Part shown: positions 4,993-10,136 of the stretch, one piece after another
Numbering within the stretch: position 1 is the first letter of the stretch
How the letters are laid out: every line of letters begins with the position of its first letter
Assembly (NCBI GenBank): GCA_013298025.1
Contig: JAAFJE010000012.1
Span: forward strand, 62,001-126,000
Length of the DNA: 64,000 nt
Reading direction: 5' to 3'
From: Cytophagales bacterium
GTDB taxonomy: Bacteria; Bacteroidota; Bacteroidia; Cytophagales; Spirosomataceae
Notes under the pieces: model-generated
Databases searched by the model: none
Seen by the model: only the letters and a program-made list of their open reading frames with translations
What the model was told of the DNA's origin: nothing
Position numbers and translations under genes: made by a program

Positions 4993-5431
4993 ACAATAAA
5001 TAAAGTTTTAGTTTGTGACTTTTTAGGGTAATACACTGATTAAAAATAGACTAAGGATTTTTTTAAACTAAGGTAAAAATTGTATTATAAATATAAAATA
5101 TCATTTGTGTATTCAATAGGCAAAAAACAAATTATTAAGATTTTTTCGCTTAAAAGCTACAAAACGATTATAAACAGCAAGCTTTTTTGAAAAAAAATGT
5201 GTATTTTTACAAAAAACCAGAAAAAAACCAAAAGTCGATTTTCTTCGTAGAGTATAGAGATAAATTGAACTTTTCTTAGAAAATACCCCGAAATTTGTGT
5301 TTTTTCCTAAAAAAAGTTAAAAACAGTGTTAATTGTCTGTAAATTATCGCAATTAATGCAATTTTTTTCTGAAAAATACTGTTAGTGAAGTATATAAACA
5401 AATTGTCTAATCTATAACCTAATTTACAACC
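4993..5431. other. AT-rich intergenic region between divergent genes
   Basis: 439 bases, very A/T-rich with many A and T runs, between the divergent 3370-4992 and 5432-5749 genes. It must contain promoters for both, but I found no exact TAnnTTTG box in either orientation. No convincing ORF, RNA gene or long inverted repeat is visible. Confidence 0.6.
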
Positions 5432-5749
5432 ATGAATATCTTTTTAACTGTACCCTTACTTATTTTGATGTTTTTAAACATAATTTACAACATTCGTGTG
5501 ATTTTAAAAACATCGCAAGACTCAAAAATTATTGCTTTAATTGGCACGGGTCTTTATTTTGCTTGGATTCTTCAGAGCGTTTCTGAACATTTGCGGATGG
5601 TATCGGGTCAAGGTGTAATGCTTGACAAATCGTTGGTTTATGCGTTGTTTTCTTCGACGGCAGTTTATACATTTTTCTGCTGGGTAATCAGGATATTTGG
5701 AAGTACTTCAAAGTTTCGTCATGTACAAACGCCAACTGTAGAACAGTAA
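5432..5749 (+). CDS. Small integral membrane protein of unknown function
   Basis: 105 residues with three predicted membrane segments: about residues 2-25 (FLTVPLLILMFLNIIYNI), 34-51 (IIALIGTGLYFAWIL) and 70-90 (LVYALFSSTAVYTFFCWVI). A short basic tail follows. There is no recognisable motif or family. It is followed by a terminator at 5775-5805, so it is a single-gene unit. It is kept as real because of its length, clean ATG, coherent hydrophobic pattern and dedicated terminator. Confidence 0.7.
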   Translation: MNIFLTVPLLILMFLNIIYNIRVILKTSQDSKIIALIGTGLYFAWILQSVSEHLRMVSGQGVMLDKSLVYALFSSTAVYTFFCWVIRIFGSTSKFRHVQTPTVEQ

Positions 5750-8047: not shown

Positions 8048-8092
8048 TATAGGTTTGTGGTTTTTGATGTGTGTTAAACAAAAAGGCTTTAG

Positions 8093-8181
8093 TAATCTGT
8101 AGCGTTGTTTAAATGTATTTTAGTTGGAGAGCTTATATGGCAATAAGCTAACTGAATGCGTTTGAACAACGCTACAGATTA
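8093..8181 (+). repeat. 89-base near-complete hairpin with 17-bp perfect terminal inverted repeats
   Basis: Outer arms 8093-8109 and 8165-8181 are exact reverse complements. The inner arms continue pairing (8110-8125 with 8150-8164) with one bulged T at 8118 and several G:U pairs. An apical 7-bp stem (8130-8136 with 8143-8149) closes an ATGGCA loop. The G:U pairs form only in the plus-strand RNA. No T-run follows, so it is not a standard terminator. It ends 26 bases before the AAA ATPase start codon. It may be a MITE-like element or a structured leader. Confidence 0.8.
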
Positions 8182-8207
8182 AAGATAACTGCTTAATATA
8201 TAAGTAT

Positions 8208-9272
8208 ATGAAAATTAAAAAGTTAGAACTTCATAATTATAAAAAGTTCGTTGCTAAACAAGAATTTTCGTTTACAGACTCAAAAAATGAAGTGAATGAT
8301 TTGACTTTAATAGTTGGCAATAATGGCACAGGAAAATCCTCCTTATTACAGGCAATTGTTGCAATAATAGCACCTTTAACCCGAGATAGGTTTAATGTTT
8401 CATCAATAGATTGGGCAGGATTTGAATACCGTTTTCTACACAGTGGGTCAATGCCATTGCATATCCAAGCTACTATTGAGTTCTCGGAGTTAGAACTAGA
8501 AACCACTATTGACTACGCAAAAAAGCTAAATAAATTAGGCGATAAATTAGGAATACCCAATAAAGAAAAACAGGTAACAGTAACGTTTTCTTATGAAAAA
8601 CAAAGGCCCATTGTACTAGGCAAAGGTGGAGGTAACTTTTTTCAATTCTCAGGATACGAATACGCCAAAAAGCTAACGGCTTTCGAGATTGATAAAACAG
8701 AATTGTTTGAGGGGGTAGGCAATATATATTGGTACACAGAACAGAGAACATCCTACAATGTAAATGATATTTTTAACAAAGAAATACCTCAAATTGACAC
8801 CATTCGCTCCTTTTTGTCAAGTGCATACAGTTTTCATTTAGCCATAACTGAAAAAAGAAGAACCCTTAAAAAAGGGGAATTCGATTTTTATGAAAAATTA
8901 TCAAAATTGTATGCGACCATTTTTACTGATAGAAAGTTTGTTGGGTCTGCTCCTCGTTTTGACCTATTTGAAAAAAGTACAGCCCCTGATTTTTTCTTAA
9001 CAGATGGTAAGCAGCAATATGAACTATCGGAAATGTCTGCTGGTGAAAGAGCTATATTCCCTATTTTAATGGACTTTGCACGGTATAATATCAATAATTC
9101 AATTATAATTATTGATGAGGTAGAATTACACCTACACGCTCCTTTACAACAAGCATTTATTAGAGCTTTACCTAAATTAGGTAAAAACAATCAGTTTATA
9201 TTAACAACCCACTCTGATAATGTGTCAGTAATGTTTGACGAATCTGAAAATCAAATAATTAGATTGAAATAA
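8208..9272 (+). CDS. AAA family ATPase, AriA/OLD-like, putative anti-phage defence
   Basis: 354 residues. SMC/RecF-like ATPase of the AAA_15/AAA_21 type. Walker A is GNNGTGKSS (residues 37-45). The ABC-type signature ELSEMSAGER is at about 272-281, Walker B IIIIDEVELHLH ends in Asp303-Glu304, and the TTHS switch is at 333-336. Between them lies a helical lever region (about 90-260). The gene overlaps the next by one base (TAATG), so the two products are made together. ATPases of this form paired with TOPRIM/DUF4435 proteins sense or transduce infection signals in PARIS, and similar pairs occur in other OLD-like systems. Codons are visibly AT-richer than purA and htpG, suggesting acquisition. 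The ATPase call is firm; the defence role is inferred from architecture. Confidence 0.85.
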   Translation: MKIKKLELHNYKKFVAKQEFSFTDSKNEVNDLTLIVGNNGTGKSSLLQAIVAIIAPLTRDRFNVSSIDWAGFEYRFLHSGSMPLHIQATIEFSELELETTIDYAKKLNKLGDKLGIPNKEKQVTVTFSYEKQRPIVLGKGGGNFFQFSGYEYAKKLTAFEIDKTELFEGVGNIYWYTEQRTSYNVNDIFNKEIPQIDTIRSFLSSAYSFHLAITEKRRTLKKGEFDFYEKLSKLYATIFTDRKFVGSAPRFDLFEKSTAPDFFLTDGKQQYELSEMSAGERAIFPILMDFARYNINNSIIIIDEVELHLHAPLQQAFIRALPKLGKNNQFILTTHSDNVSVMFDESENQIIRLK

Positions 9273-10084
9273 TGGGGAGAATTATAACAATTTATTGCGA
9301 GGGAAAGAAAGGAAGTCACGATTTTGATATTCTTGAAAAAGTAGTAGGTGATTTTGTGACCATTAAACCAATAGGAGGAAAGAAAGGTGCAAATGCGATT
9401 ATTGAACACCTAGAAAAAGGTACTGTGAAGTCGGACTACTATCTTTTTTTTCGAGATAGAGATTTTGACCGTGAAGTGCCTCAACATGAAAACTTAATTT
9501 TTGATGGCAAAAAAACATATTACAGCTACAGAACTACCATTGAAAATTATCTCCTAGATGTTTCGTTGTTTTTTAAATTTATAGAAAAAAAAGGCTTGTC
9601 CAACAAGTATGAAATAGAAACTATTGATGATGTCAAAAATATTTTCATAGCAATAGCGAAGGAATTAAAAAACTACCAAGCTGTAAGGCATACATTAGGA
9701 GCATTGCGATTTGCCAATACATTTGATACAACTTGGATGCGTGAAAGTGGCGACTTGCCTGAAAGATTAGAACTAGAAATATGTCAAACAAATGGCTGGA
9801 ATTTAGTTCAAAATTTTGTAGATAGGACATATCAAGAATGGACAAAATCGAAATTTGATGCTATTTTGAACCAATATCTTGACTTATTCAATGATGATTT
9901 TTTTGAGAATTTACAGTTTCTCGTCTATTATCAAGGGAAAGATTTTTCTAAAATGATAACGAACAAATTGACAGATTTTCCACTGAAAGATTATTATAAA
10001 TTTGCAAAAGAACATTTTAGCTATGAGGCATTTGAAGACCTCAAGGAATTAAGAGCTATTGTAGAACGACAAAGAGAGCTATAA
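9272..10084 (+). CDS. TOPRIM/DUF4435-like protein, AriB-like putative effector
   Basis: 270 residues. The N-terminal IYCEGKKG gives the TOPRIM-type glutamate (Glu10). FFRDRDFDRE supplies the Asp62-x-Asp64 pair, with Asp66 close by. YRTTIENYLLD (about residues 86-96) is the helix typical of DUF4435-like proteins. The C-terminal half is helical with no recognised domain. In PARIS the DUF4435 partner (AriB) is a TOPRIM nuclease held inactive by the ATPase and released on infection. Translation is coupled to the ATPase gene through TAATG. RloB-like TOPRIM proteins are the main alternative family. The pair stands alone and is closed by the terminator at 10099-10136. Confidence 0.75.
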   Translation: MGRIITIYCEGKKGSHDFDILEKVVGDFVTIKPIGGKKGANAIIEHLEKGTVKSDYYLFFRDRDFDREVPQHENLIFDGKKTYYSYRTTIENYLLDVSLFFKFIEKKGLSNKYEIETIDDVKNIFIAIAKELKNYQAVRHTLGALRFANTFDTTWMRESGDLPERLELEICQTNGWNLVQNFVDRTYQEWTKSKFDAILNQYLDLFNDDFFENLQFLVYYQGKDFSKMITNKLTDFPLKDYYKFAKEHFSYEAFEDLKELRAIVERQREL

Positions 10085-10098
10085 AGTTTTGTAAAACC

Positions 10099-10136
10099 AA
10101 CAAGGCCCAATCTTTAACAAAAGATTGGGCCTTGTT
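10099..10136. terminator. Bidirectional terminator between the AAA/TOPRIM pair and htpG
   Basis: Perfect 17-bp stem (10099-10115 with 10120-10136) and an AACA loop, placed between convergent genes 15 bases from each stop codon. It is GC-rich in the stem centre, but T-runs on either side are short. Confidence 0.85.

Follow-up and report, generated by a model that had tools for sequence, protein, structure and literature searches.

The PARIS system joins a hexameric ATPase, AriA, to a Toprim nuclease, AriB. A ring of AriA keeps AriB sequestered; binding of Ocr or of a comparable trigger ends this state, whereupon tRNA is cleaved by AriB (PMC11455837; PMC12409363). According to PMC9122126 (Rousset 2022), the published detection rule calls for a match to AAA_15 of at least 32 bits or to AAA_21 of at least 27 bits, with an adjacent DUF4435 match at 27 bits. 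In Gabija, as PMC12839542 and PMC10952713 describe it, ATPase and Toprim domains are fused in GajA and accompanied by the helicase GajB; the former paper also describes how BREX and BREX-related loci have recruited TOPRIM-linked OLD-ABC pairs. In this report, we analyzed 64,000 nucleotides (nt) of a Cytophagales bacterium (contig JAAFJE010000012.1, positions 62,001 to 126,000; hereafter “the window”), and we found that two adjacent genes, ORF1 and ORF2, probably encode a compact, PARIS-like abortive-infection module.

ORF1 and ORF2 form a two-gene unit, the initial annotation having correctly read a one-base overlap, which lies within TAATG. The fold predicted for the ORF2 product is that of AriB; this match is ahead of the others by over 4 Z units and extends across 220 of the 270 residues, and the model thereby supplies the AriB-folded partner by which membership in PARIS is judged. 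The elements picked out beforehand, namely a TOPRIM-type Glu, an Asp-x-Asp and an IENYLL helix, correspond to E10, RDRDFD (residues 61-66) and ENYL (residues 91-94), which are invariant in all 12 aligned sequences, the window copy included. Judging only by where the structural alignment begins, E10 may be equivalent to the catalytic E26 of AriB. Among PADLOC profiles, AriAB (1.5e-6) and AriB (1.4e-5) match this protein. The fold comparison also bears on a different explanation, in which the locus would encode a defence pair of OLD/Gabija-like type, with a Toprim protein that acts on DNA, by nicking or cutting, once activated by nucleotide depletion or DNA ends and not by an anti-restriction protein. 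The combination of an OLD-type ATPase with a Toprim nuclease is common to both. However, the two genes here are separate, the weaker fold matches to OLD, Eco8 and GajA cover 122-142 residues, and a Pfam scan of six neighbours showed no helicase; we thus regard this explanation as unlikely.

The ORF1 product bears the Walker A motif (GNNGTGKSS, residues 37-45), ABC signature (MSAGER, 276-281) and Walker B motif (IIIIDE, with D303 and E304) that had been noticed from the letters, as well as H335, and its core motif residues are invariant in 10 of 10 aligned sequences, again counting the window copy. These motifs, under the classification in PMC12839542, place it among ABC/OLD-type ATPases and not AAA+ proteins; the AAA label first given to it is corrected here. 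Its Pfam scores (AAA_15, 89.5 bits; AAA_21, 75 bits) exceed the ATPase thresholds of the PARIS rule. The PADLOC AriA profile, which is of general AAA_15 size, spans residues 1-338 (4.9e-26, 90.4 bits). In PHROGs, the ATPase matches 19 families, mostly of unknown function, and the nuclease matches none at 0.01. An AlphaFold2 model of ORF1 was too poor for use (predicted local distance difference test score of 41.7).

The two genes are inherited together. ATPase and nuclease distances correlate with r of 0.98 for ten pairs, which include three near-identical copies from plasmids (0 of 9,999 permutations), and 0.91 for six close pairs (4 of 720 permutations). The pair is under purifying selection: the ratio of nonsynonymous to synonymous divergence (dN/dS) was 0.09-0.20 in eight of 11 comparisons, although dS exceeded 2 in three of these eight, and the remaining three comparisons were saturated. 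Scanning a contig collection for the nuclease yielded eight loci, seven with 47-63% identity over nearly the full length and one (L009) holding the first 27 residues before the contig ends. A matching ATPase gene stands directly upstream in all eight, truncated in L002 and L006 where the contig begins. Near its C-terminus, the ATPase has an in-frame stop in L003 (983-2040), where the nuclease gene is open, and a frame change in L009 (2086-3145); both loci are metagenome-assembled, and either change may be real or an assembly error.

The distribution of the pair is sporadic. Searched as a single sequence, the nuclease was found in one of 99 relatives, its own genome; in a sample of 395 genomes of the phylum it matched three (its own and two weakly). 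A profile matched ten of the 395, the strong matches besides its own being G376 and a contig-end copy in G122, both with compact-type ATPases (369 amino acids (aa) and a 380-aa reading frame, respectively). In G376, the pair is followed by a third same-strand gene for another AAA_15-type ATPase (L104, 2874-6177). We did not count as compact pairs the matches in G088, G435, G439, G219 and G260 (reading frames of 542-1185 aa) or G451 (457-aa type), and a partial match in G357 (L015), whose stretch (L111) matched neither ATPase nor nuclease profile, was dropped. If the pair were instead a housekeeping or repair unit of the lineage, its chromosomal-type contig, its housekeeping flanks and the purifying selection would be readily explained, but its nuclease would hardly be missing, by single-sequence search, from the 98 other relatives and so thinly spread over the phylum sample. 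We consider this very improbable. A phage origin was also considered and dropped: no nuclease relative was found in the viral-contig and phage collections, the ATPase had no match in the phage collection at 1e-8, and its 40 viral matches are remote, with best segments 23-51% identical.

Several observations weigh against the assignment to PARIS. At 26.8 bits, ORF2 falls short of the DUF4435 cut-off by 0.2 bit. The match to AriB is at 14-15% identity only, and a sequence profile built from 12 nucleases reaches AriB at an E-value of only 0.059. ORF1 is somewhat nearer in sequence to PtuA (5.3e-28, 96.7 bits in PADLOC) than to AriA. Its best matches in the Protein Data Bank (PDB) are 9n69_A, named only as an AAA family ATPase, and then the ATPases of retrons Ec83 and Ec78; AriA is matched at 7.2e-7, best over residues 247-344, and other ATPases match better. 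ORF1 is about 100 aa shorter than AriA, whose length is 464 aa in the PDB and, in another two-gene pair from this phylum (L102), 457 aa; complete compact ATPases among the relatives have 348-369 aa. No defence gene was found among the six neighbours scanned, and the compact ATPases are not united in a tree of their sequences. The PARIS-like reading offered by the initial annotation is favoured by the AriB fold, the AAA_15 plus DUF4435-like layout and the sporadic presence, and is weakened by the sub-threshold DUF4435 score and the lead of PtuA over AriA. The remark that the ATPase is shorter than typical AriA was right, whereas its suggestion of a distinct type gains nothing from the tree.

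The DUF4435 shortfall is shared. At an E-value of 0.01, DUF4435 matched seven of the 12 nuclease rows, and of nine compact nucleases scored singly only that of L007 (37.2 bits) passed the cut-off; the published rule would therefore miss eight of nine compact pairs. In L102, the 457-aa ATPase matches AriA over residues 8-443 (8.5e-15) and has a partner scoring 53.3 bits for DUF4435, so that canonical-length PARIS coexists with the compact form. In the ATPase tree (17 rows), compact forms lie on both sides of the drawn root, mixed with fused, 457-aa and Calothrix ATPases; support is good for four of its 14 inner branches, and the program cautions that long branches meet. The nuclease tree places the eight close Bacteroidota rows together with support of 90/99, below the program's mark of 95/80. 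Because long branches meet, the trees decide little, and given the mixed ATPase tree we use the term “compact pairs” without claiming that they form one clade. A divergent pair in G411 (L101; 376 and 267 aa; 60.8 and 30.2 bits) was used in the trees only. Omitted were, from the ATPase tree, L003 (in-frame stop), L002 (cut), L009 (frame change), L017, L103, L108 and L110, and from the nuclease tree L017, L103, L105 (cut), L108 and L110.

By analogy with PARIS, we propose that the same logic of ring, trigger and tRNA operates here in smaller form. The ATPase would most likely keep the AriB-like Toprim nuclease inactive. A phage protein that blocks a restriction-type defence would change the shape of the ATPase and so release or activate the nuclease, which may then cut RNA, most likely tRNA. 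Growth of the infected cell would be arrested before phage could be released. The genome itself has ten over-cut-off N6_Mtase matches on contigs C45, C53, C4, C8, C34 and C21 (the two on C8 are probably one gene). These matches and the placement of plasmid relatives within DISARM are compatible with a guard of restriction; N6_Mtase genes are, however, common, being present in 13 of 14 control genomes, which lessens their weight for this proposal.

Four of 72,556 plasmid records carry a relative of the nuclease at 25-30% identity, the ATPase being at 43%, and we examined three of them. In Nostoc sp. UHCC 0926 and Trichormus variabilis ATCC 29413, the pair is flanked by an annotated DNA methyltransferase gene and drmA; in Nostoc carneum, the corresponding genes are annotated as encoding a hypothetical protein and a helicase-like protein. 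All three records show a 4-nt overlap between the upstream gene and the beginning of the ATPase gene. On one of these records, PADLOC matched DrmMI, which we take to be a marker of type I DISARM, along with DrmA and DrmB, and its nuclease matched nothing at 1e-5. A fifth plasmid, from Calothrix sp. PCC 7716, encodes a 366-aa ATPase of the compact kind (30% identity) and had no nuclease match; the two genes downstream of that ATPase have no Pfam family, and genes with TnsA-like, Mu-transposase-C and TniQ domains lie nearby (L100, 889-7262).

The adjacent ABC ATPase and AriB-fold Toprim protein, the ATPase gene first, and the restriction-type context of the DISARM cases recall PARIS; the shorter, somewhat PtuA-closer ATPase and the sub-threshold nuclease, missed by the published rule, set the pair apart. 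OLD-ABC and Toprim pairs in restriction-type loci are likewise found at BREX (PMC12839542), and the general idea is therefore already known. In contrast, the pairs described here are placed in DISARM or beside housekeeping genes. DISARM as a word is absent from the main text of that paper, and in the open-licence PubMed Central literature, as far as titles, abstract beginnings and term counts reveal, we found no description of DISARM carrying such a pair. Within the literature searched, three features seem to be new: the compactness of the ATPase, a nuclease scoring below the threshold, and the placement in DISARM and in operons. If our reading is correct, compact pairs of Bacteroidota and cyanobacteria escape the published PARIS rule; DISARM, as already described for BREX, would carry an embedded second-line suicide switch; and the small ATPase would reveal the parts of AriA that retention and release of AriB can do without.

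Other copies lie tightly between host genes. In L008, a V-ATPase A-type gene ends and the ATPase gene starts 2 nt later; a putative B-type start ATG lies 7 nt past the nuclease stop. In G078, which has an A-type gene 65% identical to this one, the two V-ATPase genes share one base and nothing separates them. In L003, there is a 4-nt overlap between the pair and the end of a NuoF-like gene, and 6 nt after the pair a Fer2_4 gene begins. Because L003 and L008 are metagenome-assembled genomes, mis-assembly is possible at these two loci. Looser sites adjoin gyrA (L006), NAD-binding and DUF6268 genes (L004), a transposase (L005) and galT (L007); the gyrA of L006 (2046-5927) has intein-splicing and LAGLIDADG domains. 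It is conceivable, though we would not expect it, that compact PARIS-like pairs with a PtuA-like ATPase are bare two-gene cassettes that lodge between close core-operon genes (V-ATPase A/B, NuoF-like, Fer2) and inside DISARM, use host promoters, act as a built-in alarm for blocked restriction and are mostly missed by the published rule; the lack of a single compact clade in the ATPase tree slightly lowers this probability. A short two-gene unit at unrelated sites, on plasmids and beside host genes, would also suit a toxin-antitoxin or addiction module that persists by spreading itself, contributes little to defence and has the ATPase as antitoxin, and one commentary places PARIS itself among toxin-antitoxin systems (PMC11455837). 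Yet relatives stand within DISARM operons, published PARIS tolerates deletion of either gene without toxicity (PMC9122126), and L003 has a stop in the ATPase beside an open nuclease gene, an argument that fails if the shortened ATPase is still functional or if the stop arose in assembly. Such a module is, in our judgment, quite improbable.

At the window locus, purA and htpG were correctly named as the flanking genes; the six neighbours scanned are FUR, purA, htpG, CHU_C, PorP_SprF and one without a family. The pair is indeed AT-rich, its G+C content of 32.4% being the lowest of 311 windows of pair length taken every 200 nt (mean 40.1%, standard deviation 2.6). A clean island acquired between adjacent purA and htpG, as initially envisaged, is unsupported: in each of four congeners examined, some 24-27 kb separate these genes, and we reject a simple empty-site insertion. 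The gene adjoining purA in the congeners is here on contig C51, not C4. The pair therefore sits at a synteny breakpoint.

The leader before the pair is 160 nt long and contains a hairpin (z of -8.5 for 8085-8195; arms of 27 nt, 89% complementary) that had been taken, with the downstream inverted repeat, to bound the module (Table 1). Both elements exist, and the repeat is probably a terminator, given its position between convergent genes. The hairpin, however, is not tied to the pair: it has no second full match in its own genome, was found in none of the other 58 of 59 genomes searched, and has no comparable fold in the leaders of five other pairs (L004, L005, L007, L008 and L009), so that we reject it as a module RNA or repeat. 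Nor does it mark an edge of the module. The same results bear on a retron- or Septu-like system in which this hairpin would be a functional non-coding RNA and the ATPase a PtuA. The top PADLOC scores of PtuA and the retron ATPases among the best PDB matches point that way. Septu and PtuA retrons, though, are defined by an HNH PtuB or reverse transcriptase neighbour, neither of which was found among the six neighbours scanned, and the partner here has the predicted AriB fold; we give this explanation hardly any credence.

Table 1. Features of the PARIS-like locus, in window coordinates.
Feature	Position	Strand	Basis
Imperfect hairpin of 89 nt, single-copy, between purA and the pair; judged outside the module	8093..8181		Fold z, copy searches
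ORF1, compact OLD/AAA_15-type ABC ATPase, 354 aa; AriA/PtuA-like putative sensor	8208..9272	+	AAA_15/AAA_21, PADLOC, conserved motifs
ORF2, AriB-like Toprim (DUF4435-like) putative nuclease, 270 aa	9272..10084	+	Predicted AriB fold
Inverted repeat of 17 bp, without mismatch; probable terminator separating the pair from the convergent htpG	10099..10136		100% complementary

Elsewhere in the window, a 105-aa ORF without a Pfam family at 1e-5 (5432-5749) is entered by a very AT-rich stretch (5001-5749), the G+C content of which is 23.6% at 5001-5500.
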